DNA of 64,000 nt, from NCBI GenBank assembly GCA_031763025.1, contig JASSKH010000017.1:2875924-2939923 (forward strand), in the 5' to 3' direction. Under the pieces are notes generated by a model that saw only the letters and a list, made by a program, of their open reading frames with translations, ran no database searches and was not told where the DNA came from. A program made the position numbers and the translations under genes. This document shows, piece by piece, positions 1-64,000 of this stretch (the stretch's first letter is position 1; each line of letters starts with the position of its first letter). Origin of the DNA: Macrocystis pyrifera (taxonomy: Eukaryota; Sar; Phaeophyceae; Laminariales; Laminariaceae).

Positions 1-749
1 TGACCCAACGTGGCGTGTAAACATGAAACGATACATTGTTTTTGGATCGATGAAGGCTGCCCTGCCGCCGCCCCCGTCCCCGGCCCCGCCCTCACACTGC
101 CTCCTCCACTCGGCTTTCGCCGTGATTGATGTCCTTGCCCGCGGCATCTGTCTGATGTCCGTATTCGTCCTTGTTCGGGTCTAGGGGTAGGGGCGATGTA
201 CCCGTTGCCATCGGCGTACTGACCGCTCAAAAGAGCCAGCCCTACGATGTGCCATCGTAGGCTCTGATTTCTATAGCCACCCGTGATGGGCTTCAAGTGC
301 GAACCTTGAACGACACCGCTGCCGTGTACGTTGGTCTGCGTTTTGGACTGACCGGTGATCGGCGTGGAGAAAGTTGTCAACAACGTCTGGGTTCCGTTTG
401 ATGCTGGTCGATGACCCCGACGTACGTACTGCCTTCTATCGTGCACACCCCCCATCAACGTATATATGCACTTCGAAGTATGTCTTGACCGATCTGAAAT
501 CCATGTTTCGCCTTGTTTGCCTGATCGTGGTCGAACGTTTTTGTCGACACACTTATGGCACGTTTATTCAACACGACTAGTAACACAAAACTCAAACCCC
601 CATCCGCCCACCCGCCCCCCCTGACCACGTGTTGTCCAGGTACCGGACGAGGGCTCCGCGAAGTTGCCGCAAGCGCTTGGCCCGAACATGGAATTCGTTT
701 CTTGGTCCTACTGCTGATCCGGGGGGTCGTTGTGCATACACCCATTGAT
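1..749. other. Intergenic DNA, no gene supported
   Basis: No reading frame here has convincing protein features. The only structure I see is a short hairpin near 232-262. Sequence is of mixed GC content without satellite periodicity. Confidence 0.5.
232..262. repeat. Short strong hairpin
   Basis: A stem built from CCTACGATG and CATCGTAGG around a TGC loop is extended by GAGCC/GGCTC with a small bulge. It could be the end of a decayed inverted-repeat element or a structured RNA. Nothing adjacent decides between these. Confidence 0.5.
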
Positions 750-751
750 TG

Positions 752-858
752 GCCAATAGTTGGGCCTGTTCAGCCCGTTGGACCGTCGGTGGGCCTGGTC
801 AGCCCGTTGGTGGGCCTGATGAGCCCGTCGGTGGGCCTGATGAGCTCGTTGGCCCGTT
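752..858. repeat. Minisatellite, about 21-bp unit
   Basis: Four to five imperfect copies of a unit reading roughly TTGGTGGGCCTGATGAGCCC follow one another. Each copy contains GGGCCTG and AGCCCGT, so the array is GC-rich against AT-rich flanks. No coding role is evident. Confidence 0.75.
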
Positions 859-2745
859 GTCGTTCTTTTGGGATTTGGAGCTCAACAAGCTGGCGTAACG
901 AACGTGGTGCACCCATCCGGTGGGTGGCGAGTGACCCGCGAAGCGCATTAATCCCGCGTCATCGCCGCTGCTATGGGCGGCGTGGGCCGCCTGCGTCCTA
1001 GTTATATTGAGCGTGGAGTAGCGCTAAACCTGTCTGCCTTCGTTGTGCGCTTGCAACTGACTATATACGTCTGGTTTTGCTGAATTTTTTTATGAATGTT
1101 CGAACAATTAAATACTCGTCCATCGACAACCAAAACTACGTTTTTTTCTTCTTGGGTTTCTCCTCTTGGCTTTCGTCATGGCTATAATAATAGCCCCATC
1201 GAGGCCTGCATCCGGGCATCCGTCGTTGTTTGTTGTAGAGGCGTTATGGTGCCCGGGCCCGACCAGGAGAGAGAGAGGGAGAGAACAATACGGAGGGTTG
1301 GAGACGAAACGGGGGGAAGACGTAGCAGAGGCTTCTGTTTGACGCGTGCGTCTCTTTTCTTTGGTGGTTGGTGCCTGCCTGCCTGCCTGCCTGTTTGTTG
1401 CTTTCCAGAAAATCTGCCAAACATTCCGGCCTTCCTCGTCGTTGTCGTCGTCGTGTACAGAAAAAATATGCTGGAGGGATGCTATATATCATAAGCACGC
1501 GCCATCGGTCGAAGTATCACTCGAAGCTTTTGCAAAAGGAAATGAGTTTTCAGGAATTTCTCGGTCTCTCAGCTTTTAGGAGGTGTGTGTGTGTGTTTAT
1601 TTTTTCTTCCAAATACCTGGTGTATCGTAAGGAGCGAACATGACGCAGTCCATCTGCAGTACTCGTGTACCTGGTGCCCGATATAATACTCGTACACACG
1701 AGGACAACATGAGTTTTGTTTTTAATCTACAAAAAAATGTTAATTGCAAGATTTATTCGTAGTCGCTGATACTTGCTATTAATAGTCGCTGATATTTGCT
1801 GTGCGTGCCGGGCTGTGCATACGGAGGGAGGGGGCGCTGCTGCGTTGGTCAGTGGTCAATTCGCCGAAGGGGGCTGGCTGGCTATATACTACTGTTGCTG
1901 CTACCCCCACATCCGCTGTTGTGTTCCTGGTATATATCAGCATGGAAAGAGGAATGAGACGGGCGTATGTCAACCCCGACCCTGTTCTAGATCGTTTGCG
2001 TTATGATGGTTGTTGCGGCGGGTGTAGTCATTTTTCGATGGTTTTACTCGCCAGTGCTTTACTCTCTAGATAGATTACTTAAGGTAAACCAGGTACCAGG
2101 TATTCTGCATGTGCGCCAATTGCTGGATTCAGGCAATAAAAAAGTAGAAAGCGACATCGTCACCCCAAAACGAATGTAATAAGCCTCATCACCTTGCTTA
2201 AATATATCTGACCAAGTTTTGCACCTGTAGTAGTTGTAGTAATATTAGTAGTGGTTCTTGCAACCGGTTCGGCAAAAGCTCTCATAATTTTCTACAACGC
2301 TTTGCCGGCTGGGGATCATTTTCGAGGGCTGGCGGAACACGACATACAGCTTGTTTCAAACATTATTGAAATAGAAGCGCTACTGCCTGAGCCCCCTTTT
2401 AGTTTGCATCAGATTCGGACGGAGATTTCTTTTTAAAAAACGTTGTTTGGAGCGATTTTGCCCCGAATTTATTGGTTGGCTTTGGCCGACCCGTCGCCTC
2501 GCTCTCACCCATGCGAGTGACCTCGGACGAATCATCAGTTTCCACTTGATCATTTTAACCTTTCAGGGCAGATACATTCCGGATCGACAGTAGTGGCTCG
2601 TGTTGCCGGGTGCGAGCCTTATAATCTGTATGGTGTAGCACATTTTCCCTGGGTCGGATCAAGCCTTCACAACGCCAAGTGCGGATCTAGATGACCCACT
2701 TGTGGATCATGGTCTGTCCCAGGTGTGTAATCTATTTCCGGGGTA
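859..2745. other. Intergenic DNA, no gene supported
   Basis: About 1.9 kb with only short, low-complexity frames. It includes a GT run near 1583-1598, a (TGCC)n-like run near 1374-1392, and AT-rich stretches. I found no copies of the repeat families that fill the rest of the window. Confidence 0.45.
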
Positions 2746-3620
2746 GGTGTGGGATATCGAACGCGAATCGAGTTCGGTACGATACCGATGAACTAAAAAA
2801 CTTCGTACTCGTAGTCGATACGATTTCGATACGATCCCGATTACAAAAAAAATAGTGGATACAATTTCGATACGATACCGAGACGAACAAACTGGTCGAG
2901 GCGATGCCGATTGGAGAGCTAGTAGATACGATTACGATACGATACCGTTAAAAAATACCAGGTAGTCGATACGATTCCGATACGATGCCGATAAACAAAT
3001 AATAAGAGTCGATACGATACTGATAAATAAACTGTTAATAGTCGATTCGGTTTCGATAGGATACCGATCAACAAACTAGTAATAGTCGATACGGTTTCGA
3101 TACGACACCGATGAACAACCTACTAAGGGTCAATTCTTATTGGAGAGCTTTTTCCATAGTTTCCATATTTTTTTCGCGCATTTTTTCAGTCTCTTCCAAA
3201 TTTTCTTGATTTTTTTAATCCAAATATGTGAAATTGAACTTTCCTGTCTTTTTGGCTTCTGGAGAATTTCACGAATAGTGACAGAACGCCCCGTATCTTG
3301 ATACATATCTCCAATTATTTTCAAACTTTAGAAATTCCGTAAAAAGCTCTCGATAAGAATGAGCCTAATAGTCGATACGATATCGATAAACAAACTATGA
3401 ATAGTCGATTCGATTTCGATACGTCACCGATAAACGAACTAGTCGATACGATTTCGATACGTAGGATGCCGATAAACAAACTATCGAGAGTCGATACGAC
3501 ATCGATACGACGCTGAAAAACAAATAACTTTGAGTATCCGATACGATTTCGAAACGATGCCGATAAACAATAAAACTGCCGTACTCGATACGAGTTCGTT
3601 ATTTAATACCTGGTACATCG
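2746..3620. repeat. Degenerate GTCGATACG satellite
   Basis: The phrase GTCGATACGATTTCGATACG followed by a CCGATAAACAAACTA-like segment recurs about every 45-60 bp for 0.8 kb. Copies differ by substitutions and small gaps, as expected for an old tandem array. The array is interrupted at 3127-3365 by a TIR element. Confidence 0.85.
3127..3365. mobile_element. 239-bp TIR MITE (family M2), Harbinger-like
   Basis: The termini are inverted repeats: GGGTCAATTCTTATTGGAGA at the left and the complement of GGCTCATTCTTATCG at the right. A TAA trinucleotide flanks each end (3124-3126 and 3366-3368), which fits a 3-bp TWA target duplication typical of PIF/Harbinger elements. There is no coding capacity. 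A second copy lies at 27405-27652, also inside a satellite. Confidence 0.85.
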
Positions 3621-4260
3621 AAGTTTTCCTTTAACATCTGCACAAAAAAAAACACGGGGATGCCAGCGAATGCATGTATGGGGCAAAATACGTTCGATAC
3701 CATATACCGAAAGTCTCGACACTTCGAAGTAAACATCGAAACTTTTGACACGATACCCCAGCATCAATCCAGAGTAGGTTTGGGGCGCTCAGGTCTGGGT
3801 GGCATCAGGGGAAAAACGTAAATAAATGTTCGTTGGTTTGTTGCGTGTTCCCCTTTCCACGGAAGAAACGATCCTCCTCTCGGCCAATACACATCCGAGG
3901 AAGTAGAAATTTCATAGAAACTTCTGTCCTAAAACCTATAGCAAAGCTTACTGGATCGAAGGCCCCTACTTTTTTTCCGGGATCAAACCACAGCAGTAGA
4001 CATGTTCCCTATACTTCGTAAGAGTTCATCTACTGCTGTATGTAGGTGGAGACTTGTATGAGCAAAACTCCGAAAGGATGTATCGGTCTGTCCGTTCGTC
4101 CAACACTACCAAAACAAAAAAAAAGTTGCAAATCTAATAAAACCATGCACTCCACAAAACCTATACCGGAGCTTACGTAGAAATCACGAAGAAGATCGAT
4201 CGAGGGCTGACCCAGCCTCGACAAAATTGTTGAAATTACACTAACTCTATAATCTTAATC
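3621..4260. other. Intergenic DNA, no gene supported
   Basis: This stretch contains two weakly similar segments around AAACCTATAGCAAAGCTTAC (about 3934) and AAACCTATACCGGAGCTTAC (about 4156). I see no convincing gene or complete element. Confidence 0.4.
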
Positions 4261-4269: not shown

Positions 4270-4765
4270 CCGTTTGGGGGGGGGGCTACAAGCCCATACC
4301 CTTGTGGCGTGGGATACACCCCGATTGCCTGGAAAAATCGCAGAATGAATGGAGGTTAGTATACTATTAATAGAATACTGTATTATCATAAGTAGTCTGG
4401 AATGTCAACAGTTTTGTCGACGTTGCGCCAAATCGCGGGGGGGGGAGGGGGGGGGGGGGGTTACAGGTCCATACTCTTGGCGTGGGATTATGCACCCCGA
4501 CTGCCTGGAAAAATCGCAGAATGAACGAAGAGTTATTGTGGTATACCTGGTAAGTAATGCAGCTTTGTTGAAGTTGCGCCAAATCATGGGGGGAAGAGGG
4601 AGGGAGGAAGGGGCGTTACAGGCCCATACCCTAGGTGTAGGATGAACCTCAGCTGCCTGGAAAAGTCGCGGAATGAATTCAGAGTTATTGTAGTAAAAGT
4701 ATTGTGGAATATCATCAACTTTGTCGTGGTTGCGCCAAATCGCCGGCGGGGGGGGAGGGGAGGGG
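4270..4765. repeat. Tandem repeat of about 145 bp separated by poly-G (units a-c)
   Basis: Each unit runs from a CAGGCCCATACCCTTGGCGT-like start through GATTGCCTGGAAAAATCGCA and a GTTATTGTAGTA region to GAAGTTGCGCCAAATCG, then a G-rich spacer. Three units lie here and two more at 5993-6275. Differences between units concentrate at one spot after GTTATTG, where short TA-flanked words have been added. Confidence 0.85.
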
Positions 4766-6275: not shown

Positions 6276-6530
6276 TATGCTTCCTACACTACAGTATAAT
6301 GCTGTTTCTGCACATTGATACATATTATTTATGTTATACCTTTGTACCTGGTAGTTCTATTATTGTGATATTTTTAGCGTTGTTTGCCATCTGACGATGT
6401 GTTATTACAGCAGTAATATAATATTAATAGGATGAGCTTCAACGTTGATCACTCACAAACCTTACCCGAGAGAAAACCAAGATATAATATTGTGTACTCA
6501 AGTAACTGCTGTGTACTGCGAACATACAGT

Positions 6531-6647
6531 ATTACGGGGGCCCATAGTTAATAGGACCTATTATATACATAAAAACCTACCAGGTATATAATATTTCCGT
6601 ATTTTAGTGAGAATATTTGGTCCTATTTACTTTGGAACCCCGTAGTA
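6531..6647. mobile_element. MITE family M1, copy 1
   Basis: The left terminus ATTACGGGGGCCCATAGTTA and the right terminus near TTTGGAACCCCGTAGTA are imperfect inverted repeats. Compared with other M1 copies, the interior has an extra CCAGGTA at 6580-6586, giving TACCAGGTA where sisters read CCTATATATTTACC. Confidence 0.85.
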
Positions 6648-6660
6648 GTATTTCTTGGTA

Positions 6661-6768
6661 TCACGGGGGTCCATAGTTAATAGGACCTATGATGTAGATA
6701 AAAACCTATACATTTACCTATCTTTTCCAACCATATTTGGTCCTATTCACTATGGTCCCCCCTAATGT
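6661..6768. mobile_element. MITE family M1, copy 2
   Basis: About 108 bp with termini TCACGGGGGTCCATAGTTAA and CACTATGGTCCCCCCTAATG, adjacent to copy 1. The interior follows the family pattern ACCTATG-ATAAAAACCTATACATTTACC. Confidence 0.85.
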
Positions 6769-7180
6769 TAATAACAGGCATACAACGTACAGCACCAGGT
6801 ATGCTATATTGCAGATATCAACCCTAGTGAGTAAATAGTTACATTGATTGATAAAATTTAGAAACCATCAGCTGTGACATCGAGGATGGTTGTATATATC
6901 AGGTACCTCCGTGGTATATGATTTTGATCGGAAAGGCGGAACGACAAAAAAAAAATATTTCGGAGTTGAACCTGGGGAATTCTGGAAAAAAATGAAATTT
7001 GTGTATCAAACACGGCAGCAGCAGCAGCTGCACACACTGACACGAAGTATTTCGCTCCGAGGCGGGAGTGGGGACTAGTCAAGTCCTGCCAGCATCCTGA
7101 TTGGTTGAAATAATAAAGCAGTGTTAACAATGTTGCAATCAGTAGCTGTCATTCTTACTGCTCGGAAGAAGTGAGAAAGT
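6769..7180. other. Intergenic DNA, no gene supported
   Basis: It contains a short CAGCAGCAGCAG run near 7014-7027. No protein or element is recognised. Confidence 0.4.
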
Positions 7181-7289
7181 TATTACGGGGGGCCATAGTA
7201 AATAGGACCTGCGGGTACACACAAAAAGCTGTATATTCAAGTATTTTTACTCACAATGTTTGGTCCCATTTACTATGGTCCCCCGTTAT
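7181..7289. mobile_element. MITE family M1, copy 3
   Basis: The termini TATTACGGGGGGCCATAGTA and TACTATGGTCCCCCGTTATA are inverted repeats of about 27 bp. The interior is about 55 bp and AT-rich, with no ORF. Confidence 0.9.
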
Positions 7290-7424
7290 AATGCTTCTAA
7301 GTATTTATGTTGATACTATTATCAAACGAGTACCCCGTCGAAACCGAACGACTCTAGCGAATACCGTGGTAACGACCAGAGGAGATTCTACAATAGTTCG
7401 GGAACGGGGTAATGTGAAGAAAAC

Positions 7425-8345: not shown

Positions 8346-8430
8346 TACTGTCAGAAACGCCTGCTGAAAGAGGGGGTCAAAAACCTAAACAGAAAAGGGC
8401 AGGGGCCGAAATGAAGGCAACAAAAAACAC

Positions 8431-8540
8431 TATTACGGGGGTCCATAGTTAATAGGACTTATGCTATACATGAAAACCTATATATTTACCTATTTTTACT
8501 AAAAAAAATTGGTCCTATTTACTATGGTCCCCCGTAATAG
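8431..8540. mobile_element. MITE family M1, copy 4 (clean reference)
   Basis: The ends TATTACGGGGGTCCATAGTT and TTACTATGGTCCCCCGTAAT are nearly perfect inverted repeats. With TA taken as a 2-bp target duplication, the element proper is TTACGGGGG...CCCCCGTAA. That is the signature of Stowaway-like, Tc1/mariner-mobilised MITEs. The interior reads AAAACCTATATATTTACC without any insertion. Confidence 0.92.
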
Positions 8541-8705
8541 GATCATCGCGGAAGAAGGATGGATGTAAAAACCCTACATCGAGTCGAAATATATACCAAG
8601 ACACATACATGCAGAAGAAAGAGGCGCAACTCAGGGAACGACCGTGTGCGCGGGGGCTCGTACGTCCAGGGCCGGGTAAGGTCCGGGGGTTTACGAGAGC
8701 AGGGC

Positions 8706-8902: not shown

Positions 8903-8992
8903 CGTTCGTGGAACTATTGCCAGGGGACTTGCTAGGGCCTGTGAGGGGAGTGAACAGCAGCAGTGTTCCACTCTGGTATGGCGAACAAGTTG

Positions 8993-9104
8993 TATTACGG
9001 GGGGCAATATAGTAAATAGGACCAAATATTGTTAGTAAAAATAGCGAAATATATGGGTTTTTGTGTGTACCGCAAATCCTATTTAATATCGCCCCCCGTA
9101 ATAA
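8993..9104. mobile_element. MITE family M1, copy 5
   Basis: Termini TATTACGGGGGGCAATATAG and the complement near GATATTAAATAGGATTT are inverted repeats. TA flanks both sides. Relative to sisters it has two extra bases (AT) in the left arm. Confidence 0.88.
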
Positions 9105-9414
9105 TAGTAATGGGAGCAACACCAGCAAACGGAGCAAGCAGGTGACTCAACCAGAATCAATACGCCCACGGGATCGTCAAAAAGTCACTCAGATGGGCAG
9201 GCCTAAGGCGTCTAGTTCGATGTGGGCAACAGGGTGTGTCCCTACGGATATACGACTAGACTTACTACGGCTAAAACATCGAAGATCGTAGGAAGGCGGG
9301 TATGCCAGTGACATAATAAGGTTGAAGAAAAAAAAAAAAAAAGCGTTGCGAACGCAAGAGAAGCGTTGCGAACGCGAGAGAAGAACCATCAGGGGATATT
9401 CAGCAAGTCATTCA
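9105..9414. other. Intergenic DNA with A-tract
   Basis: It contains a 15-base A-rich tract at 9326-9341 followed by a short duplicated phrase AGCGTTGCGAACGC. No gene is supported. Confidence 0.4.
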
Positions 9415-9928: not shown

Positions 9929-10812
9929 GAAGTAGTTCTAGAACATGCCTATACTACTCGTACCACCAACTGGTGCAGCTGGTTCGAACGTGGTCTTCCT
10001 TTGTCTTCCTTTTGTTTTTGTTTATTTTTGTTTCATTTTATTTCTTCTTTGGCGCTGACCCTGTGTGATTTTCATTTTACTTTATTTTTCTTCCTTTCTC
10101 CGATTGATAAGCCTTATTGAAGAAGTCGTGTGGCGTGGGTGGATGACGAGCCTGCTCTGCTTGTTTCGTATTGTCTGATGCCGAGGGGCCGGGCATAGTT
10201 GGCGAACGCTGGACGAAGGTGGCAGACAGGGTAGCAAGGTACCAGGCGGGCCAGCAGGGAGACCCTGAATGTGCTACTCGTACCATAAACTGCTGCCGCT
10301 ACCTGGAGGATGCTTTGTGCTTTGTTTGGTTTGCTTGTTATTTTCCCTTGGTTCGTAGTCTTGCTCTGTTGACGACGACTATTAATAGTGGTGCTTTCTT
10401 ATTTTTCCTGTTTTTTCCAGCTCGTTCTTTTTAACTGTCTGCCAATCCCCTCTGCCAGGGGGGCACGATGGTTTGTTGTTAAATATATACCAGGTATATA
10501 TTTGCTTTTTTTTCTTGTTTTTTTTTCTCTTTCAAATTGTCTTCTTTGTTTTTTGTTTTTTTCTCTTTGTTTCGTTTTCGTTTCTCTAGGTCATGGAATC
10601 TGTATGTCGTGCCTGTCGTACGCAGTATGATGACATGGCATTGCTTTGCATACGTGGCAACGTAGTATCTCTGTGGCGTAGCTTTGTGACCACAAAACTT
10701 GTATCTCTCTAGGATTGAAGAATAGGCACGGACACTGGTTGTGCTGGATGTCGACGGGTAGAAAGAACGGTTTAATTAATGTGGAGAAAACAACAACAAC
10801 AACAACAACAAC
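9929..10812 (+). mobile_element. LINE 3' UTR ending in (AAC)n (copy L2)
   Basis: Downstream of the C-terminal frame are pyrimidine-rich stretches and a partly duplicated segment (GGCAGACAGGGTAGCAAGGT near 10220 repeats the one near 9895). The conserved end block GGCACGGACACTGGTTGTGC...GATGTCGACGGGTAGAAAG leads into AAC repeats at 10790-10812. The same end block precedes simple repeats at 13333-13362 and 18705-18726, and occurs inverted at 36790-36900 and 42305-42475. A fixed 3' end leading into a microsatellite is typical of several LINE clades. Confidence 0.78.
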
Positions 10813-10970: not shown

Positions 10971-11270
10971 TCATCACTTTTACTTTCCAGCCTACTCGTA
11001 GGAAGTTTTACCCTCAGCGATCTTCTGGACAAGCCGTGGTCACAGGTGGTGTCGTGCCTTGATTACTTGTCGCGCATAGGGTTCAGCATTCCCACTGCTC
11101 GTCGATTTGCATCGAATGTAGCTACGTAGCCTCACGCTCTCGCGCATTCCGCTAATCAATTATTATGCAAGAAAAAAGTCCCTACGAGCATATACTCTGT
11201 GAGAATCGAACCCACGAAAGAGAAATTGATCTTGATAGGGACGCGGACCACCTACCAAGCCACCGGGGAC
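10971..11270 (-). mobile_element. SINE family A, copy 1
   Basis: On the minus strand this starts with a tRNA-like promoter: an A-box-like GGTGGCTTGGTAGGTGG, then a B-box-like GGGTTCGATTCTC. It ends with GGCTGGAAAGTAAAAGTGAT. It aligns with 34195-34508 and 40400-40735. The A-tail seen at 40722-40735 is missing here. Such elements are transcribed by RNA polymerase III and mobilised by LINEs. Confidence 0.82.
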
Positions 11271-11628: not shown

Positions 11629-12235
11629 ACACTTTTGCCAAGCTTCGAACGGCTCACCACCAGGTCCTCTTGCGAATCATCGACTTCCAGCGCCGATTTC
11701 GTACCGACCACGCCACCCACTCTCTCGTACGCGAAGGCCCTCAAGATGACACGTTGCGAGAGCGTCGAAACCACCATCCGTAAGCGGCGGCTTTTTTCCT
11801 GCGGGGGCGGTTTTGCACGGCTAAGCAAAGAGCGATTTCCCAGTCGGGTAACGTTCAGGACGATGGCGGGCGGGGAGAATCCGAGACCTGGCGGACAGTT
11901 TAAGACATGGTTTAGATTATTATTAATAGTCGAAGATTAGGGATTTCCGAGCCACCGACGGATCAACGGAACACTCCCCCTTGGTGAGACCGCGCTGTGG
12001 TCCACTGCAGTACAAAATGTGGGGAAGAGATTCCGGGAGGTCCATGAAGCAGCCGAACGGCTCATGGTGAGGTGGCACGAGAAGCACAGCTGAGTATAGG
12101 CAGCGCCGCGCATCCGCCGTGGGTGGTGCCCAAGGGAATGGGGGACGAGGAGGCAACAGGAGTAGAAAGGAAACCGCTGTGGACGAAGCAAAAATAGGAA
12201 GGAGACGGCAGACAGGGTAGCAAGGCACCAGGTCG
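11629..12235 (+). pseudogene. LINE RT C-terminus and C-terminal domain (copy L3)
   Basis: The plus-strand frame at 11635-11940 contains TLSYAKALKMTRCESVETTI, RKRRLF and FARLSKERFPSRVTFRTM, followed by GGENPRPGGQFKTW. Arg-Arg-Leu followed by a few residues and Arg-x-Pro-x-Arg-Val-x-Phe-x-x-Met is the usual end of CR1/Jockey-type RT polyproteins. A frameshifted continuation (11940-12235) matches the domain of copy L2. At the join, 11925-11935 holds TTATTATTAATAG where the other copies have a shorter sequence. The copy is dead. Confidence 0.78.
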
Positions 12236-12237
12236 AC

Positions 12238-12347
12238 TATTACGGGGATACATAGTAAATAGGACCCACGGTACGCACAGAAACCTATATATTTTCCTAT
12301 TTTTACCAACAACATTTGGTCCTATTTACTATGGTCCCCCGTGATAG
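12238..12347. mobile_element. MITE family M1, copy 6, inside LINE L3
   Basis: The ends TATTACGGGGATACATAGTA and TTACTATGGTCCCCCGTGAT are inverted repeats. The element splits the LINE sequence just after the ACCAGGTCGAC segment that ends the C-terminal domain, so it inserted after the LINE copy. Confidence 0.9.
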
Positions 12348-13365
12348 TAGGTGGAACATGCGATGGCACTTGACAATTGTGCCGCCAACTGCTGCAGGTG
12401 GTTCGAACGTGGTCTTCCTTTGTTTTCTTGCTCTTTTTGGCTTCCAACCCTCCGTGATTTTTATTGTTACTTTTCTTCTATATTTTTTTCCCTTTTTGTC
12501 CTTTTAACAGAAGAAGTCTTATGGCGTGGGTGGATGACGACCGTGCTTTTCTTTTTTGGTATAGTCTGACGCATCTTCTCCGAGGGTGGGGCATAGTTGT
12601 TGACGAAAGCAGGACGGAGACGGCAGACAGGGTATAGCAAGGACCAGACCGACTAGTAGGTCGAACCTGGCTATGCTACTCGTCCCACAAACTGCTGCGG
12701 CTACCTGGAGGATTTTGTGCTTCGGTTTGCCTGTTGTTTTTCCCTTTCGGTTCTTATAGTCTTAATCTGTTTGCATGCATAGTATTAATAGTGGTATCGT
12801 CTCTTTGGCTCGTTCTTATCTGATTTTTTTCCCTTCTTATCCTTATGAAAGAAGTACTACATAGTGGGTGGGTGACGAGCGTATTTTGGCCCACTCACTA
12901 TTGCTCTTTTTACTTAGTTAAGTGTTCACCGGGATGCATAGTCCTCTTTTTCCTTCTCGTATCTTTCCCCTTGCACGTCCCTTTTGGCTCATGCTCGGGG
13001 TAAGTATGTATGTGTCTGAGCTTTGGCTTCCCATTTTATTTATTTATTTGGGATTCTTCTCCTTTTCTTTTTCTTTTTCTTGTTCTTTTTCGGTTTGGTT
13101 TTTTCGTTGCTTCTCTTTCTTTATGGTGTATTTTGGTTGCTGGCGTATGTATGTATGTTGTGTCGGCCGCACCTAGTGCGAAGGCATGGTATTACGTAGG
13201 CTATTAATGCATTACGGTGTGTTATCTCTGTGTCGTAGTCTGTGACCACAGAGCTCGTATCTTTCTAGGGTGAAGAATCAGCACGGACACTGGGCTTGCT
13301 GGATGTCGACGAGTAGAAGAACGGTTTAATGTGAAGAAACACACACACACACACACACACCCTGC
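12348..13365 (+). mobile_element. LINE 3' UTR ending in (AC)n (copy L3)
   Basis: Subrepeats seen in L2 recur, including GGTTCGAACGTGGTCTTCCT and GAAGAAGTCTTATGGCGTGG. Long T/C-rich stretches follow. The end block CGGACACTGGGCTTGCTGGA...GACGAGTAGAAG leads into CA repeats at 13340-13361. Confidence 0.75.
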
Positions 13366-14455
13366 GGGGGGGCACGACAGTTTTTTTTTTTCTGGTGCTC
13401 TTTTTTCATCTTTCGATTTGTTTGTTTGTGTGTTTGTTTGTTTCTTTCTTCTGCTTGATGTCATGCCTGTCGCATATCTGGTACGGCAGTATGATGAACA
13501 TGGCATTGCATTGTCTACTCTGCTTACTGCATAACAATGCAGTATCTCTGTGGCGTAGTTTTTTTACGGCAGCATTTGTATTTCTCTAGGACTCATTAAT
13601 CGGCACGGACACTGGTTGTCGTGCTGGATATCGACGGGTGGGAAAACGGTGGAATATCATGAAGAATAAACACATAGTCTCCAGTCTCCAGCAGATATTG
13701 CGAGTAACTTTCTATAGCACCACGTAGTAGCAGACAATTGTTTTGTCGAACGAGAACTTTTCCTGGAACATTACTTTTGGTTTGTGTGTTTGGGATTATA
13801 CAGGGATAAATCTACTGGGGAACATTCGATTCAAGTTGGGATGGAACAGGTACGATGTCGGCGGGGGCAAATTAATAACCATTTACCCTGCCTGGTACCA
13901 GGTATTCATGCATGCCTGGTATATACAACGAAATACTCGTACGAATGTATGATACGTATGTGTGCTTGTTTGATGCACAAAACAGAAATGATATTAATGT
14001 TAATATTATAGTATGAATAGTAGTGACAGCAACAAAGAAAACTTCGTTCTTCCTCCGCCTTTGTCCACGATGCCGATGTTCGATTGATTACTGGGCAATT
14101 GGTAGACTCTACTATGAATACTGCTGTACTTTCGGGGGCACCGCTGTGTTGATTACTGGGAGGGCTTAAACTTGCAGCCAGTATTTCTCATTGGGGACTT
14201 GAGAATCATGATTTTGACGTTTGATTTTTGATTTTTAGGCCGAGATTCGAGGATTGTTTTTTGTTTTTTCATGTTTGAACGATGCAAGTAGGCAGTCAGA
14301 GAGACGGTGAGCATCCCTGCACCGTATTTCGTTAGCTCTAATTTTAATATAGTGTATTATACGTGGTATAACGCCTTGTAACTCAAAAAAATATTAGCAC
14401 CCCCCCCCCCCACCCCCGCCCCCGTGGACGCAGATCTCTCGACGACGTGGATGAC
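13366..14455. other. LINE-derived tail piece then unassigned DNA
   Basis: At 13540-13660 a further copy of the LINE end block appears (CGGCACGGACACTGGTTGTC...ATCGACGGGTGGGAAAACGG), without a microsatellite. From 13660 to 14455 I recognise nothing except a C-rich run at 14400-14421. Confidence 0.5.
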
Positions 14456-16345: not shown

Positions 16346-16971
16346 TTTTATCGGAACAGAAAAAAAACATCGCTATCTTAACACGCTGCGTTTAGAACTT
16401 CGGCTGGTTCGTGCTTACCGGGGAGCGACGGTGACTTGAAGGAAGTTTATCACAGCAGCTTGTTGTGTTTCTCTCGAGATTGATATCCCGCCCGTTTTCA
16501 ACAAAGGCTTACACCTCGACTCAGAGGTGCTCCAGTGGTCGAAATTGGTCGAAATTTGAGGTGCACGAAATGAGACAAAAAACAACCCCCAACTGGACGT
16601 TTGCACTTCGCTTGCGGAGGGCTACAGCTTCTCACAGGAAACTGCAGCCCGCGAAATTGAGGCATGCTTCTGACGGATAGGGTGTGTGAGGGCGACGGGT
16701 GCACCAGCCGGCAGTCGGAGGCACCCAGAAACGACTCACGAGATGTTTTCGTGCATTCGAAGTTGCGAGCGAGTAGCACCAAAAGCTAAAAAAAACGCGC
16801 GCCAAAATGTTTTTTTTTTCACGCAAGGGAGCATAGCACAATGGCTACATCACCGATCGATGTAGAAATGGCCTTCACCAGAAGATCGACGTTTTCCAGG
16901 TGGATGATATATCTCTTAGAGAGTCGTCATCGAGGATGCCGCGGGAGGAAAAACTACGTTCCCATGATGGG
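16346..16971. other. Intergenic DNA, no gene supported
   Basis: No repeat family member or coding frame recognised. A T-tract lies at 16809-16819. Confidence 0.4.
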
Positions 16972-17081
16972 TATTACGGGAGTCCACAGTTAATAGGACC
17001 TATGGTATACATAAAAACCTATATATTTACCTATTTTTACTAACAAAATTTGGTCCCATCAACTATGGACCCCCGTAACAG
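16972..17081. mobile_element. MITE family M1, copy 7
   Basis: The ends TATTACGGGAGTCCACAGTT and CAACTATGGACCCCCGTAAC are inverted repeats. The interior AAAAACCTATATATTTACC is the uninterrupted family form. Confidence 0.9.
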
Positions 17082-17259
17082 TAAGTTATTGGGCCCAAAA
17101 AAATGCTAAAGAGGTCTAAAAGTTCAGATTCTCGTATATTAGCATAAACCATTCTACAACCACGAAATAGGGATTTTGGTTGCAACGCTCTTACTCTAAT
17201 TTCCAAGTCGTATTTATATGTTGCCGAAACGCCTACGCGCAGGGACTTGACGCATTCCG

Positions 17260-47452: not shown

Positions 47453-48702
47453 CCTCCCGTTCGGTTCTCTAATGCAACGACTATAAATAATGTCATCCGA
47501 GGGCGGGACACTCAGGGCATCCAGACTTGCAACCTACGAGCAACATCTGGCCCGTCCTAACCGACAGCTCCAACATCTTCAACAACGGTCAAAGCGTACA
47601 TCATACCATACATTTACGGCTGTTTTCGCGGGAGGCGGTCACCTTCATGCCGACGCTTTACTCGCGTACGCCAACTGTCGCCAAGTGTTCCGGCAAAGTA
47701 CCCGCTCCCGTTTCCTTTCACGTAGAGTTAGACGCAGCAAGGACAGTCGTCCGCGACGGGCGTTTAAAACCTTTTAGATGCCGCTGCCGCGGGTGCTGCC
47801 GGTGCTAAAGCGGAAACAATAGCGCGAACCGAACCAGGAGGAGTTGAAGCATTTCATGCATCGGACACATCACTGAGATCCCCCAGATCTTTCGTGGCAG
47901 ATACATTCCTGACCTGTATGTTCTGCTGCTCATGTTGCCGGGTGTGACCCGCATTACTTGAATGGTCGGGCGCCATGCCATGTTTGCTGACGTGGATACG
48001 TTTACTATTGCGTTTATCCTACACATCATATCATAACGGCACGGTAGGAGCACAATGATCTAGATGATCTCGATGATCTACGAGTATCATGATCTAGATA
48101 GTGGTCTGTCCGATGTGTGAAGATTTCACCTACCTGGCCGACGACATCAGCGTCGACCCGCGCAGCATGACGGAGATGACACCCCGAGTTTACCGTAGAG
48201 GCGCTGCCCTTCTTCCAACGCGAGCTGCCCTTCAACCCTCCTGTACTCTAAGCTAGCGTCACCATCAAGCCGAGCAAGATCATACGCTAAGCCAGGTACA
48301 AGGACGTGCCTTGTTTTTCTGAGCTCTCTTTACATGAGTAGGAGCTCAACATATCACCCGAAGCACGATGACCTTCGAAGAACTTTCTTCACGCAACCCG
48401 ACTTATTCTACAACTAAGTCAACTACACGAGTTGAAATATCATACTACTTGGTATACGAGTAGTAACTCACTTGGGGAGCTCAACCGGCCAGAAAATGTT
48501 GCCTTAGAAGGCAAAAAAGTGCAACCCCTACCATGGGATGAGTCATGATGAGTGGGATTGGCCAGCAGTTCTGCTCCCAATCTCAATTGGCCCGTTTAAA
48601 TCGCAACGTTTCAGGTGTGCCGAGTCTTTTCAACGGGTCATTTTTGTTACACCCAAATCTTGGAACACCTCTGTGATGGGATGGCCTAGGTAGCCTTCGC
48701 AG
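47453..48702. other. Region with protein-like scraps, no gene model
   Basis: One plus frame at 47527-47808 reads SNIFNNGQSVHHTIHLRLFS and then a HVELDAARTVVRDGRL segment. Near 48115-48240 fragments such as LADDISVDPRSMTEM and EFTVEALPFFQRELPFNPP lie in different frames. They look like a decayed coding sequence, but I cannot name it. Confidence 0.3.
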
Positions 48703-50590: not shown

Positions 50591-52249
50591 GGGGTGGGAG
50601 GGGGAGGGTCGATCCGGTTTGGGCTTCTCGGTCAATCACAGATGTTCTACGGTCGCCAAGTGGCGGACTCAACCTTGCGCTTTGCCCGGAATGAGCCCAC
50701 TTACTCTCCGAGAGGTATCCAGCTCAAACATTAGCTTCTTCACACAGATGCACTTCGAGCTATTGCCGACTACCCCAAATATCAACCTGAATGTATCTGA
50801 AGTAGCTCCAAACCAGAAATTGCCCTACTCTCTGACGAAGGACAGCTTTAGAATTTTTAGGCGCCGGCTTTTCCACCGTGGGTATAAAAACTCGACTTGC
50901 GCCTCTGGAGAAGCCGGCTTTTGAGTTGGGTACCTCTCGAAGAGGCTCTTGACTGATTCCGAGCAGTTTATTGCACGGTGTATAGGTAAAAAATAACAAA
51001 CATTAACGTCAGAAAAACCAAAATCGAATCGAAATATACATGATACCACGTGACAAACGCCTCCCGAAAAAGAAACGAAATATAAAACTGGGCAAGCAGG
51101 TGATACACCAGGAACACTGAGATCAATAGCTGTGGCGTATCTATTCCACTGGGTTTGGTACGAAAGGTATACGCTGCCTCTCTGTGTAAATCAGCTACCC
51201 GAAACAGTTCCTGTATGCCCGCTTGGCGCGGACCAACGGATCGCGGGGGACGGAAACCCAGAGGAGCTTTTTTCGCCAAGGCTCGGCAACGGGGCCAATC
51301 TGGACCGAGCACACGCACTGCCTTCTTGGGGGCAAGACCCGTGGGTTATTCGTCTTGAGCCAAACCAGCCTCGGAGTTAGTGGTTAACGAGACAGCGTGT
51401 TTTTCTGGGGATGGAGGGGTCTCTAGCGGTGACGTGCCCCTCAAGCCTCAGACTTTGTGTCAACGGGACGGTCTTTTCTGGGGGTGGAGGAGTTTTGAGA
51501 GCGGTGACGAGGTTCTCTTGTGCGGTGCAGCAGAGGTTGATACGCGTACGTGACATGCACGCGTGTATGGCCATCGAGCAGGAGCGCCGGTTGATCAGCA
51601 TCACACCCACTGGGGTTGACGAGCTCTCCCGCACCTACAAGTGACATACCATCCGTCGTCGAGCAGAAAGCGGGTAGGCCCTTCGAACCCCAACAGAGGC
51701 CTCTGCATGGATATATCATCGAGAGGGGAGGCTGCCGAAACGCTACGTACGGCGACAAAACGATGTTTCTCGGCGTCACGTATGCGGACCCACGAGCGGG
51801 GGCTCATATTTGTTTTTTGCAGGCAGCACTGTCATCGCGAGATGAGTCAGCTGTTTCCACCTCTCTATGCGATGCGCAAGCGCGAACCACATACATACGC
51901 TCGTTCGGGGCATGTGTCCATTGACGAGTGCAGCACTCGCCACCCTTACGATGGGAGAGCTTTGGACGCTTCGTTAAGGAAGGCAGTGACCCAACCGAAC
52001 AGCAGGCGGCGAGGATCGTCGGAGGGACGGATGGAGGGTTCTTGGCCAGGAAACCCGTTTTAAAACGAACGCCTAATACGAATGTACCAACGAATCTACA
52101 GCGAGTCGTCACCAAAGGTTGGCGGCTTTTCGCCGAGTGCACCGACGGAGCTCCCTCTGAGGGACCGCCAGGCTGCTACCAACAGGGGGAGGAGAGTCTG
52201 TTACCGCGTGGCGTTGTACAGAGTCACACCACGGTGTTGGAGCCATGTC
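50591..52249. other. 1.7 kb with a few exon-like scraps
   Basis: The best scrap is 51531-51647 (+). It follows GTGCGGTGCAG and encodes QRLIRVRDMHACMAIEQERR and ISITPTGVDELSRTYK before TGA. Another strong acceptor (TTTGTTTTTTGCAG) at 51809-51822 leads into a frame ending at 52063. I cannot connect them into a gene. Confidence 0.35.
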
Positions 52250-52251
52250 AC

Positions 52252-52790
52252 GATAGTGGGGTCATGCCACGGAAAAGGGGGTCATGCCACGGCAATGGGG
52301 TCATGCCACGGTAAATAGGGTCATGCTACGGGATTGGGGTCAGGCTACGGTAATGGGGTCATGCCACGGTACTGGGATCAGGCCACTGTAAATGGGGTTA
52401 TGCCACGGTGATGGGTAAATGGGGTCATCCCACAGTAATGAGGTCATGCCACGGTAAATGGGGTCATGCCACGGTAATGGGATCGTCCCACGGTAATGGG
52501 ATCATGCCACGGTAGTGGGTGAATGGGGTCATTCCACAGTAATGAGGTCATGCCACGGTAAATGGGGCCATGCCACGACAATGAGGCCATGCCACGGAAA
52601 ATGGGGTCTTGCCACGGTACTGGGATCAGGCCACTGTAAATGGGGTCATGCCGTCATGCCATAGCGATCGGATCATGCCACGGTAAATGGGGTCATGCCA
52701 CGGCAATGGGGTCATGCCACGGGAATGAGGTGATACCATGGGGATGAGGTGATACCATGGAAATGGGTTCATGCTATGGCGAAGATGTCC
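52252..52790. repeat. 19-bp minisatellite GGGGTCATGCCACGGTAAT
   Basis: Some 25-30 units follow one another with small length variants, including a higher-order variant GGTGATGGGTAAATGGGGTC. The unit includes CATGCCACGG and its GATCATGCC-like variants. A stray unit is at 52962-52978. Confidence 0.95.
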
Positions 52791-54179
52791 GGAGACAGGA
52801 GACATCACTTTCACCTCTTGACAGACAGAAACGTTGCCTCGACGTGGCAGCCTTGACTGACACAAAACTACCAGGTGTTAGTGTGGAACACACACTCGGT
52901 CCTACATGCACCCTTGACAGCGCACATTTTGCCTCGCTTGACATGCCTCCTGACATCGTTTTGCCACGGTGATGGGGGCATCTGCGATTTTGTTTTAGGC
53001 TACTGTATATATAACATGACAAGGTCTACACCTCATCCCCCAAAAGACAAGACTATACCGCACGCGCAAGCCCTCATGAAACAATCCATATGAGGCATAC
53101 AAGAAACATATTTAGTGAGGTACCCTATGAATGTTATTACGGCATATCGTCTCCTTAAAAAGACCAGTTTCGTAGTGAATTCACACCATCTCGAGTAATC
53201 AATTATTAATACAGTAGGGGCCTACAAAAGGCGGTACATGTATATACACCATACAGTGCGAACGATTTTTGGCCGCCCTGTATCGAGAGGCCGCCCTGTT
53301 CGTGTAGGCAGTTGTGTTGAGAGTTCCCGTCGTGCCAACCGATTTGAACAGTCCTATTATATATCGAGTGGCCGCCTTGTTATAACCGCCTTGTAGCCCC
53401 CGTTACCTCCTGTAATTGCAAGGTGCAAGGTACCCATGGTATTGCATATCGTCTCCTTCAAACAGAGAACAATTTAACGAACTTATACTTGACTCAAGTC
53501 CACCAATTCATTAATTTCACCCACCAACGTACCCATCTGCAGTCAACACCTGGTATTTGTTTTTTATGGCGACGCGGGCTACGATACGGGTACAGCAGTG
53601 GTGTACACGCTTTAACACCATCCGGTTTGAGACCATAGTAGAGGGTAGACCGGAAAAATCGGCTTGTCACGGTGAAGAAAACAGATGAGACCGATTTGCC
53701 CCTATCCCCCCAACTCTGTCTGAAGTTGGCAAAATACCGCCTGTGCACGCACACAGAAGACCCCTAACTTGACTAAGATAACCCACCCCACGAGCACACG
53801 AGGGCCCTGCTTCTGCCGTACACAGAGAAGTCATGTTGCTGTCTCTTCGGCTGCACCCGTGCCCTGCGCAGCGGCTGTGAAGTGCAGGCTCCAGCAAGAC
53901 ACGCCGGGCCTTCCTGGCGTTATATGCCACAAATATTATGCGAATATCACAAGAGCTGTCGTTCGGCAGCCGGGTAACGGCGCACATCGCAAATGCACGC
54001 TACAATTGTGCTGCTCGTCGGTATGTTTGCGTTTTATTTGATGAATCCACATGCTGCCGGGAAATCACCAACCATTTTCACGTTTGTGTTGTGTGCCTTT
54101 CGGGGGCGTGGGGACCGACCCCAAAGGACGTTCGCATCTGACAAGTAGTATATAGGTAGAAGCAATCGCGTGCATTACA
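52791..54179. other. 1.4 kb unassigned DNA
   Basis: GGCCGCCCTGT/GGCCGCCTTGT recurs near 53271, 53290 and 53371, and GCATATCGTCTCCTT occurs at about 53142 and 53443. No supported gene. Confidence 0.4.
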
Positions 54180-55210: not shown

Positions 55211-56205
55211 AGCAGTTATCATTGGCTCGAATGACTTATTTAAGGGCAAGCAACAAATGAGTACGACTCGCCCCCCCCTCCGCCACCGTAGCATGTTTGT
55301 CACGGGAGGGAGGGAGGGAGGAAGCTGGAGGACTACAAGTACGACCAAATTAGCGTGGGGATGACATGCAACAGACGAGGAGTAGGATATATTTTACGGT
55401 TTGGATGAAGTTGCCCGGGTAATGTGGGTAAATGATGGAGGATAAATAATACACGGCGCGGAAATAGAAAACGGCGCCTTCCGGTAGTTACGGTACAGTA
55501 ACGCGGTCTCTCTATAGTGTCGGTTGCCCGCTATAATGGAAACAAGTGAGAGGCTGACTATATATAAACGGTTGCAACGTTTGACTGCGATCGCAGATTT
55601 GAAAAATAAATACATATCGATGACGCCCGGAAAAAAAAAAACGAATGAGATTGGAGGACTCGTTACTTTATTGGTTGACGAAAAAAATGTACCTGTTACA
55701 TTTTATTCAAGTTAAAATTGTCACGGAAAAAAAAAAAAACTGGCCACCGCAAAGTTCGAACTCACGCAATAGTAATTTAATGAAGGCCAAAGTACCACTT
55801 TAGACCATAAAGGCACAAAATCAGCTTATATTCCGTTGGAAACCAGTTCGCATCTAACACATACCCTTGTAGATTCATGGGGTTCGTCTCCCCCCCAAAA
55901 AAACAATCCTCCGTCGAACCCATGACACGTTTTCACCAATATGCCTATAACTTTGTTTTAATCTAATTCATTGTTAGGCTTGAAGTGGGTCAAAACATAT
56001 ACCAGGTACCTGATATGTTTTCGTTTCGGTAATTTTATGTCGGGTCCTACAGGGGATTGAGGACTATTCCGATTCCATTAAAAGGCTGTGCTACGTAGCT
56101 TGACAAATCTTCTGTTGTTTTTGGTTGGGCCATAGTTGTTGATGTGTGAGGATTTGCGTGCGATTAAGTCTCTTCTTCCGGATGGTCAACACGTCATGGT
56201 GAGCT
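55211..56205. other. Intergenic DNA with one tRNA-like scrap
   Basis: A GGGA tetranucleotide run lies at 55306-55320. Near 55738-55800 the minus strand has TGAGTTCGAACTTTGCGGTG, a weak B box. No gene is supported. Confidence 0.4.
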
Positions 56206-60249: not shown

Positions 60250-61290
60250 CCTGTTCGGTTGGGGCGTTGTTAGTGGCGTTTCTATCGTGCCTCCCAGAGC
60301 GCGAAGAAATACTTCGTACGAGCAAACCTTTGTCCTCAGGGCGCTGATTCAGCGGAAACAAGGCGTTGCTGTCGAAATGTAGGTGGGAGTTCCGCATCTC
60401 GAGGATGGTGCTTACTCCCGAGTTCAATGCTTTGACCAAAGAGAAAGGGTCGAGTCCCAATCCAGATACGATCATGGCGGAGATTCAAACCGAAACGCGC
60501 TGTCCTGCCTAAGCGACGATGTACCCCGAGATAGTCCCAGCTGCCGTCCTGAAAAATTATCGTCACCGGCGATTACGATGGTCTTCGGCTTCTCTGTTAA
60601 TAATAATAGCAGCTCCTTGAGATCCCGCATGCTGTCCTGCAGCTTTGGAATTAGCTTGTCGTCCGGCAAGTGGTCCGACGCGCCGCTGCCCACAACCATC
60701 GTAAACCTGTCAGACATGGGGTGCAAACCCATTCCGCCGTCACCTACCACCAGTCCCGTAAACGCCATCCCCTTGTCGAAGTTGGACGGTTCCTCGTCGT
60801 CGTTGACGGGAGGTGATATCGCGCTCAGTACAGCAGAGGCGATGCGAGCGCCGATGTTCTGCGATGGGTAACATTCCGAGCCGTTGTGAGAGGTAGTCTT
60901 GTGTACAAAACACCACTTCTGCTCAGCTTCATCGTTGGATCCTGCTTTGATTTTGGAAGATTCGTTGTTCTTCTGCTTGTCGTGGGCTCCAGTAGACTTG
61001 CTGTTGTTTCTGAACTTGTTGTACTTACTTGTTGACCAGTTCTTAAACAGGCTGCTGACCCTCCCCGCTCGTACCAGTCGAGTCTCCGTGCTTGTCGACG
61101 AGAAGTGCTGCTGCTTTTCCGTTAGTATAGAGGAATGTGTAGAGATCTTCGTTTGCCTTGCCGAAGTCAGCAATTGCCCTGTCGAGCGAAGATTGAGCTC
61201 CCGTGTCGGTCGTTGCTTCGGTTGGCCGGGGCTTTCCTATGATCAGGCTTGCAATGTCTCGGCCCCCGCGACGACGAGCACTACCGCCAG
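60250..61290 (-). pseudogene. Ty1/copia gag zinc knuckle and protease fragment
   Basis: The minus frame at 61173-60472 contains KWCFVHKTTSHNGSECYPSQ, a C-x2-H-x4-H-x4-C knuckle of the gag end. About 70 residues later FTMVVGSGASDHLPDDKLIP follows. That is the copia aspartic protease active site, with Gly in place of the catalytic Asp of the usual D-S-G-A-S. PKTIVIAGDDNFSG follows, as expected for the flap side. After a frameshift, GVSTILEMRNSHLHFD (60430-60380) continues the family. The lost Asp and the frameshifts show it is inactive. Gag packages element RNA and the protease cleaves the polyprotein. Confidence 0.85.
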
Positions 61291-62364: not shown

Positions 62365-62519
62365 TCTGGCGTCGTCGGAAGGATCACACTAACAGGTTAC
62401 AGGTATATGCTATAATACACCAATAGTACTGCTGTACGAGCAGAATACGGCATTGCCGCAGTAGTGCCGCGTAGGATATACAGGTGATGCAGTACCCTCG
62501 GCGAAACTATTATTTTACA
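62365..62519. other. Short unassigned stretch after the LTR
   Basis: It contains GTACTGCTGTACGAGCAG at 62428-62445. No further internal element sequence is recognised. Confidence 0.3.
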
Positions 62520-62870
62520 CCTCGGAGAACGTACACTAATCTACGTTGTGGGGCCCAACACAGGAACGCGGTAACGTGCTAACATATTGTTAGCACTGGA
62601 GGAGCGATCACGGGAACGCGTCAATATGGTGTTAACTGGGAATCCACGAACGTGCACATGCCTTAACGTTATGTTGCTGCTCGGTCTCGTCCAGCTCTGG
62701 TACAGTAACATGTGCTATGCCGTGATCAGTCCTTGAATTAACACTGTAACATAGTGTTAGGCTTTGACCAAACACGTGCATCACTCTAACGTGCCCAGAT
62801 CGACATCCGCATATTTACTAACACGATAACATAATGTTATTTATTATGCTTGCCTTCCGACAATATAGCG
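62520..62870. repeat. GTTATGTTA-type satellite, third block (inverted)
   Basis: The reverse complement matches 27720-27990 and part of 24215-25030 (for example CAGTAACATGTGCTATGCCG against CGGCATAACATAATGTTACTG). It resumes at 63955-64000. Confidence 0.8.
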
Positions 62871-63249: not shown

Positions 63250-63620
63250 TTACGTCACCGTCATGACAGCTTCTGCTGTCGACAACGACAACGTAACACA
63301 CCTCTGCGTGCTACTTGCCCAACTGATGGTCGCACCCCCTAGGGTAATTACCGTCCCCGATACCGAGCGCTTATCGTTCGACGTATCAGCATAATCACCA
63401 TCTCTATACGCAGTCAAATCCAATCCCGAGCCCCGCACAAAAGTCAATCCCATAATCCTGGTCCCGTGGAGGTAAGCCATAATATTCAAAACTGTCTTCC
63501 AGTGCCTCTCCGTTGGGTTGTGGGAGTGGCGCGCCACAGCACGCACAGCGTTCGAGATGTCCGGCCTCGTCATGGTCGACAGCCACATCAAGCTGCCCAC
63601 AGCCTCCCTGTACGGCCAGT
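63250..63620 (-). pseudogene. Ty1/copia RT/RNase H fragment
   Basis: The minus frame at 63600-63250 reads GSLMWLSTMTRPDISNAVRA, ARHSHNPTERHWKTVLNIMA and YLHGTRIMGLTF. It then reads YRDGDYADTSNDKRSVSGTV and LSLSTAEA. These are the conserved connection and RNase H motifs of copia polyproteins: TRPDI, HW..VLR.L.YL.GT, ..D.DYA.....R.S.SG and LST.EAE. The fragment is cut on both sides, by SINE C at one end and the head array at the other. RNase H would remove RNA from the RNA-DNA hybrid. This copy is dead. Confidence 0.92.
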
Positions 63621-63639
63621 CTCCTCAAATGCAAAAGGG

Positions 63640-63835
63640 AAATCAGGTGGAGAGAACCACCATAAAATAACACTCGACCAGAGAGCCGAAAGTGGAGTGA
63701 ACCACTTGAGTAAAATAACGCACGACTAGGGAGGGGGACAATATGAAGGACAAACCAGGCGCTGATTAGGGGCATGATCAACCCCGGAGGATGTTATCGG
63801 TGGGAGGCCGTATCCAGCCCAAAGGTACTTCTTTC
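63640..63835 (+). mobile_element. SINE family C body without head
   Basis: From GAACCACTTGAGTAAAATAA through CCAGGCGCTGATTAGGGGCA to CAGCCCAAAGGTACTT it matches 61670-61806. The head is missing at the left. An inverted head follows at the right (63836-63930). Confidence 0.83.
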
Positions 63836-63930
63836 GTTCGTTTATCAAGGATAGACCACTGAGCTACTCAGTCGGCGCTGGCTGAGCTGACTGAGTAGCT
63901 CAGTGGTCTATCCTTTATAAACGAACAACT
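63836..63930. repeat. Head-to-head SINE C palindrome
   Basis: GTTCGTTTATCAAGGATAGA to CTACTCAGTCGGCGCTGGCT, then GACTGAGTAGCTCAGTGGTC to TTTATAAACGAAC, form a near-perfect inverted repeat with arms of about 42 bp. Confidence 0.9.
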
Positions 63931-64000
63931 GTTACCCTTAGGAGGAGTGGTATACATAACACCCTAACGTTACGCTACCATGTTCGCCAGCACTACTAAA

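Follow-up and report, generated by a model that had tools for sequence, protein, structure and literature searches.

The scars that cut-and-paste transposons leave on excision are known from Tc1, Mos1 and Sleeping Beauty; the footprint of the last reads TA-CAG/CTG-TA. In ciliates, internal eliminated sequences, which are bounded by TA and related to Tc1/mariner elements, are removed in huge numbers. There, a single TA remains and no scar is left. To our knowledge, excision footprints have usually been studied one at a time. We here describe short words of the form TA-core-TA in 64,000 bases of the kelp Macrocystis pyrifera (the window; contig C197, positions 2875924-2939923; 48% G+C, rich in repeats), part of a genome assembly that totals 537,376,219 bases over 223 contigs. 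The words are TACCWGGTA (W being A or T; TACCAGGTA or TACCTGGTA), TATTAATA, TACTCGTA with its complement TACGAGTA, and TACTGCTGTA with its complement TACAGCAGTA. They are insertions with duplication of TA and are likely to have been left behind, on excision, by cut-and-paste DNA transposons of several families that target TA. Like Tc1/mariner footprints, they show the TA duplication, a short core between two TAs and the core in both strand versions, and a class with a CTG/CAG core equals the Sleeping Beauty pattern. Unlike these footprints, the CCWGG core has 5 bp and the CTGCTG core 6 bp, the copies exceed 100,000, and a parent was not found. The ciliate system differs too: its one remaining TA contrasts with the two TAs plus core of the kelp scars, which therefore do not have the form of internal eliminated sequence removal.

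As far as the accessible parts of the papers cited here go, Tc1/mariner and Stowaway elements both leave TA-duplicated footprints (PMC4561436, PMC7913693). The cores left by Tc1/mariner excision measure 2-4 bp (PMC7913693), a range that accommodates the kelp cores TTAA, CTG/CAG and CTCG/CGAG. Plant Stowaway-type miniature inverted-repeat transposable elements (MITEs), which are served by mariner transposases, leave their target-site duplications and bases of the element ends on excision (PMC4561436). Excisions detected between two rice genomes were mostly irregular, only 8 of 94 being perfect (PMC4423477); in contrast to these messy events, the kelp scars are highly uniform. For Ectocarpus, like kelp a brown alga, and likened here by description rather than by sequence, 17 Mariner-Tc1 families with 11,912 copies, mostly non-autonomous, are described; in the accessible main text of that paper no word beginning with “footprint” occurs (PMC12477816). 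Within the literature searched, as far as its texts were accessible (PMC4561436, PMC10498591, PMC7913693, PMC12477816 and PMC4423477 included), there was no report of these words or of genome-wide orphan footprints in kelp, nor did a uniform 5-bp footprint with more than 100,000 copies and no element turn up.

The excision scar as such is thus already known. What appears to be new, within that literature, is a uniform 5-bp orphan footprint at this scale. With about 120,000 intact occurrences of a single footprint word, past transposon excision becomes something that can be counted and dated. One repeat present in thousands of copies, with the same TA filled in some and empty in others, provides a natural experiment on the joining of double-strand breaks. 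A repeat annotation that looks for elements only would miss this history.

Abundance of the Words

Expected numbers were derived from an order-3 Markov model of the window, each non-palindromic word being pooled with its complement. TACCWGGTA was observed 20 times (0.74 expected), TATTAATA 17 times (2.18 expected), TACTCGTA/TACGAGTA 18 times (2.84 expected) and TACTGCTGTA/TACAGCAGTA 10 times (0.28 expected). With 200 kb more from the same chromosome, i.e., in a set of 264 kb, the figures are, in the same order, 84 versus 2.7, 67 versus 8.2, 56 versus 13.2 and 28 versus 1.6. After low-complexity filtering, TACCWGGTA is the top-scoring 9-mer of this set. The genome-wide counts cover TACCWGGTA, TACCSGGTA (S being G or C) and ACTATTAATAGT, and the numbers for TACTGCTGTA, TACTCGTA and plain TATTAATA are those of the smaller sets. 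TACCWGGTA occurs at 121,279 places and its reversed-pattern control at 2,421 (about 50-fold lower); the S-centred form reaches 12,109. ACTATTAATAGT is found at 4,278 places and its reversed control at 40 (about 100-fold lower).

An earlier note on this DNA, made from the letters alone, had held that the words exceed chance level; the Markov excess in the window and in 264 kb and the genome-wide controls bear this out. Its 14 positions for TACCWGGTA are all correct within 5 bases, and six more were added (2094, 13896, 29779, 33596, 43383 and 47006). For TATTAATA ten of its 11 positions hold within 8 bases and one is off by 15; here also six more exist.

That local composition, microsatellites or larger shared repeats feign this abundance is extremely unlikely. 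Some of the other high-scoring TA words in 264 kb are indeed microsatellite or MITE-internal words, and some listed words are homologues of each other and hence not independent (TACTCGTA at 9955 and 10275, TATTAATA at 10380 and 12783). The contexts of the 20 TACCWGGTA in the window, however, are mutually unrelated by eye, which led us to reject larger shared repeats as their cause; three of the 20 lie inside known repeats (2956, 4544 and 6578). For TACCWGGTA the artefact is refuted by the reversed controls, the contrast between W- and S-centred forms and a control shifted by one base, which is presented below.

Duplication of the Target TA

Comparison of the 264 kb with itself yielded 513 insertion or deletion events (indels) of 3-30 bp with clean flanks. 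The TA-duplicated form accounts for 10 of the 30 indels of 7 bp, and five of these 10 have the CCWGG core. Among 206 non-tandem indels of 5-9 bp, TA is clearly the favoured duplicated dinucleotide: it was counted 21 times, GC 4 times, AT 3 times and CG never. The non-palindromic pairs were seen 2 to 9 times each, though most of them occur roughly twice as often as TA.

Filled and empty pairs were obtained for the cores CCWGG, TTAA, TTTAA and CTG. A clean pair is formed by TATTTAATA at 27732-27740 and its sister copy at 62580-62840, which is shorter by exactly 7 bp. TACCTGGTA inside the MITE copies L002:4270 and L015:5366 gave 27 and 36 alignments, respectively, to unfilled copies; further pairs comprise TATTAATA at L001:1953 and L001:5006 and TACTGTA at L006:8140 and L007:4522, while at L006:5791 the putative empty copy is too diverged for a clean pair. 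In a tandem array of the CGATAC type (2774-3601), one TA bears nothing, CCAGG, CTCG, GTAA or TGAA, depending on the unit. TACCAGGTA at 2956-2964 (+) belongs to this array, where a sister unit reads TAGTCG without a core at the same TA; TACTCGTA at 2806-2813 (+) occupies an array TA that bears TACCAGGTA in another unit. For TACTGCTGTA no coreless sister copy was seen in the material compared, apart from one row of the MITE-site matches. At 27869-27878 (+) it faces TACTGTA in the sister copy 62580-62840; its 6-bp core may there be a triplet duplication of the 3-bp core or a second kind of joint.

The MITE just mentioned offers many copies of one and the same TA. It has 109 bp, ends in TTACGGGGG and duplicates TA. 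Twelve copies lie in the window, a 13th being aligned only in part. Being short and multi-copy, with terminal inverted repeats and TA duplication, it is Stowaway-like; it shares the TA duplication with the Stowaway-type MITEs and differs from them by its TTACGGGGG ends. The copies on the forward strand are found at 6526-6655 (filled by TACCAGGTA; the aligned range includes a few flank bases), 6655-6772, 7178-7293, 8427-8543, 12234-12351, 16968-17085 and 29018-29134, those on the reverse strand at 8991-9108, 22631-22747, 27992-28110, 28572-28684 and 42526-42643. In viral contigs the MITE word was not found.

The arm word GTTAATAGGACC, with its TA empty, has 19,645 copies in the genome (control 24). 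With CCWGG and a TA added at this TA, 116 copies were found and none in the control; of the 100 of these matches that were listed, 62 have CCTGG and 38 CCAGG. For the sister arm, the pattern GTAAATA-N(3-9)-TAGGACC has 443 matches (control 8). Among the 100 of the 443 matches listed, the core was CCWGG in 52 (CCTGG 36, CCAGG 16), CTG/CAG in 6, CTCG/CGAG in 3 and CTGCTG in 1; a 7-bp tandem duplication makes up 8, and the remainder is mixed. The same TA was thus hit by the CTG class and by three of the four words. TATTAATA was absent from these 100, which is consistent with its different target preference (see below); TTAA appeared in one row of a separate listing of joints at the MITE site. When the test was shifted by one base, so that AG was the duplicated dinucleotide (GTTAATA arm), 31 matches were found genome-wide (control 8). 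Many of the 31 are tandem duplications, and CCWGG stands between two AGs in none.

Two propositions of the earlier note are hereby corroborated. The first, that a filled copy exceeds an empty one by the core plus one TA, agrees with the indel pairs and the counts at the MITE site. The second, a TA-site duplication as in Tc1/mariner-type transposition or excision, finds support in the 21 of 206 indels and in the MITE-site counts versus the shifted control.

Excision or Direct Insertion

The filled sites could, in principle, also have been made without any excision: a fixed unit of 7 bp, core plus TA, would have been put into TA sites and never have been part of a larger element. The near-constant core fits this idea, as does the finding that core and TA alone distinguish a filled copy from an empty one, and some 120,000 scars genome-wide contrast with the lack of any parent in 264 kb. 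We know of no mechanism, however, that inserts such a unit at TA sites, and for TATTAATA a matching full-length MITE family exists. The joints at the MITE TA, taken from several sets of matches, are not uniform. Beside CCWGG, the joints CCAG, CCGG, CCATGG, CCTTGG, CCCTGG, CCAGGG, CCTCTGG, CC and TGG were seen, and some joints lack the right-hand TA. In one of these sets, with 100 listed of 138 matches, the 40 that have the MITE word GGACC, or something close to it, after the core were classified; the other 60 were set aside, being foreign sequence, local arrays or, in some cases, MITE copies altered by deletions or otherwise. Variants that look like end joining thus do occur at one and the same site. 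Since their length varies at the same TA (CCGG, CCAG, CCATGG, CCCTGG, CCTCTGG, right TA lost), excision footprints fit better than the direct insertion of a fixed unit, which we regard as distinctly unlikely.

Among the 100 of 443 sister-arm matches listed, one-base length variants (CCAG 3, CCGG 2, CCATGG, CCCTGG and CCAGGG) number 8 and substitution variants 3. This is the reverse of ordinary mutation, though the numbers are small and CGG, CGGG and CCCAG fit neither class. Such a spectrum of joints would be expected if end joining had sealed a staggered break with an element end on either side.

Proposed Mechanism and Decay

As judged from the sequences, the scars have probably arisen as follows. 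An element would insert at TA and thereby duplicate it. At excision, the cuts would be staggered, so that either end of the element loses a few bases to the donor site; these leftover bases would then be sealed between the two TAs by end joining. In the CCWGG family the element ends presumably begin with CCA or CCAGG; two identical ends could then anneal, CC with GG, and the central A:A or T:T mismatch would be repaired to A or T. A 5-nt near-palindromic overhang would account for both the constancy of CCWGG and its A/T centre. A similar head-to-head pairing of the outer bases, TT with AA in TTAA and C with G in CTCG, CTGCTG and CTG, can be imagined for the other words; this logic would fit CTG/CAG too, and CTCG/CGAG and CTGCTG/CAGCAG less tightly. 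In 264 kb, the 5-bp CCWGG was counted 84 times, CCGG 16 times and CCATGG twice. A 3-nt CCA overhang with independent trimming of the ends was considered and fails, on its own, to explain this ratio. The excess of CCWGG over CCGG and CCATGG suggests that annealing of the 5-nt near-palindrome would be the preferred route.

The one-mismatch relatives of the 84 intact TACCAGGTA in 264 kb show an excess of 42 for transitions and of 27.5 for transversions, which looks like transition-biased, neutral decay. This bears on another possibility, namely that selection maintains the words as binding motifs, be they regulatory or structural. Their strong over-representation and the palindromic nature of TACCWGGTA and TATTAATA would suit such motifs. 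Yet TACTCGTA and TACTGCTGTA are not palindromic, the words arise as TA-duplicating insertions in MITEs and other repeats, and their mutants build up with a bias towards transitions, as neutral decay would have it. A role as binding motifs is therefore very improbable.

If decayed forms are counted, the excision events probably number nearer 200,000 than 120,000. One may speculate that a single family once occupied more than 100,000 TA sites and was purged from nearly all of them with one fixed joint (CCWGG, derived from a near-palindromic 5-base overhang), perhaps by a developmentally programmed or host-driven process. We consider this unlikely. If it were true, the family would be recorded in the genome by its scars and not by its elements.

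Target Preference

The bases outside the TAs differ from word to word. MITE insertions and TATTAATA have the target TAC-TA-GTA in common. Scored for the MITE-type target, TATTAATA has a mean log-odds of 0.64, random TAs reach at most −0.29 (5,000 samples) and TACCWGGTA −1.38. The latter is flanked by R before and Y after, and A follows in 1% versus 19% for any TA. The words therefore do not all belong to a single family, since TATTAATA and TACCWGGTA sit in different target flanks. Every TACCWGGTA scar, incidentally, creates new R-TA-Y sites that fit its own target preference.

The MITE ends read TTAC...GTAA, and TATTAATA parses as TA-TT-AA-TA, with two bases from each end. Having the target flanks as well as the end bases of the MITE, TATTAATA is probably the footprint of the TTACGGGGG MITE, an assignment based on target preference and sequence match and not on an observed excision.

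The Missing Parent and Other Objections

A number of observations weigh against excision as the source of the scars. CCWGG is unusually constant for a product of end joining, and CCAG and CCGG are possibly later one-base deletions. The core lengths of CCWGG (5 bp, already called unusual for mariner-type footprints in the earlier note) and CTGCTG (6 bp) fall outside the 2-4 bp range given in the accessible part of PMC7913693. CCTGG outnumbers CCAGG on the MITE strand, a skew not expected if the mismatch were resolved at random; it may reflect related copies or strand-biased repair. The filled MITE copies may partly share descent. Finally, the filled and empty copies at 6578 differ by 3 bases more than the expected 7.

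Another objection is the missing parent. Full-length elements with CCAGG/CCTGG termini, which the earlier note had envisaged, were not found in the 264 kb, although 84 intact scars lie there, and no CC-ended inverted pair stood out there. At 14 loci with foreign sequence after ATAGTAAATACC, taken from 100 listed of 138 matches, no recognisable parent was present within about 3 kb. A search of the genome for the Tc1-type transposase DDE_3 gave no match; that for the mariner model Transposase_1 gave none either, but its control was silent too, which renders this result uninformative. The pogo-type DDE_1 has 39 matches genome-wide, and the seven loci examined (L021-L027) have no recognisable ends.

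In 264 kb, with expectations scaled up from the window figures, the one-sided word TACCAGG is at background (45 versus about 44) and TACCTGG somewhat above it (50 versus about 34). The matches listed from TA-anchored inverted-repeat scans comprise the TTACGGGGG MITE, minisatellites and scattered singletons, and five rows of larger TA-duplicated insertions likewise held no parent but MITE, minisatellites and singletons. TA-anchored 10-mers with at least 4 copies in unrelated left contexts were also collected; the first 60 listed are mostly micro-words and MITE ends, with some minisatellite or other repeat words, and contain no CC-ended element except the CCWGG scar itself. A Pfam scan of 69 open reading frames (ORFs), drawn from the 156 of at least 150 amino acids plus a few shorter ones, revealed no transposase. 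CCWGG is thus an orphan scar family, its element not found in 264 kb; presumably, the parent is rare, very divergent or extinct.

Two candidates in the window were rejected: 1614-2095 has no relatives in the available sequence, and at 52869-53555 the homology to L010 crosses the supposed left end, so that no element boundary exists there. At L033, L036 and L038, the closely inspected loci among the 14, the left context is not MITE. Several of the copies L021-L027 are near-identical over most of the stretch including the flanks, up to about 6.5 kb; these are large elements or segmental copies.

Positions of the Words in the Window

Apart from the copy in the tandem array, TACCAGGTA scars on the forward strand are located at 2094-2102, 6578-6586 (in a MITE copy, aligned sister copies being without the scar), 10488-10496, 13896-13904, 23445-23453, 28250-28258, 29779-29787, 33596-33604, 41303-41311, 43383-43391 and 56000-56008. 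On the reverse strand they lie at 3607-3615 (where the forward strand reads TACCTGGTA), 4544-4552, 6345-6353, 23316-23324, 24983-24991, 33938-33946, 39822-39830 and 47006-47014. Among the genome matches listed there are also pairs of TACCWGGTA with one TA in common (period 7), e.g., C1:24921/24928.

TATTAATA occupies 1777-1784, 4365-4372, 6422-6429, 10380-10387 and 12783-12790 (homologues by alignment), 11921-11928, 24861-24868, 27072-27079, 27991-27998 (at the edge of a MITE copy), 30638-30645, 34789-34796, 37633-37640, 39935-39942, 42471-42478, 43179-43186, 46654-46661 and 53204-53211. Further copies of TACTGCTGTA are at 4031-4040, 14119-14128, 28276-28285, 38783-38792, 42664-42673 and 62427-62436 on the forward strand, and at 6406-6415 (forward strand TACAGCAGTA), 34159-34168 and 37538-37547 on the reverse strand.

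TACTCGTA is found, beyond the array copy, on the forward strand at 1687-1694, 9955-9962 and 10275-10282 (homologues of each other), 10993-11000, 13934-13941, 20929-20936, 28424-28431, 36061-36068, 37775-37782, 40338-40345 and 41283-41296, the last being two copies with one TA in common. The reverse strand has it at 39836-39843, 40368-40375, 47145-47152, 48079-48086 and 48455-48462. The copy at 10993 is probably no scar, since its aligned sisters, CCACTCGTA and CCAACTCGTA, differ by substitution or one base.

Other Features

Neither tRNA genes nor, in a gathering scan, Rfam matches were detected across the window. Two ORFs on the reverse strand, 60472-61236 and 63250-63624, were taken by eye for copia-type gag/protease and RNase H pieces; the Pfam scan, in which both were included, assigned no retroelement family. 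At L015:2039-2364 a 24-bp minisatellite with GATCATGATCTA is likely the source of many enriched GATC words. Another minisatellite, at 52229-52774, has a unit of about 19 bp in about 27 copies and higher-order periods. The window also contains very long poly-G runs, an interrupted one of 76 bases at 35617-35692 and a pure one of 61 bases at 36491-36551.

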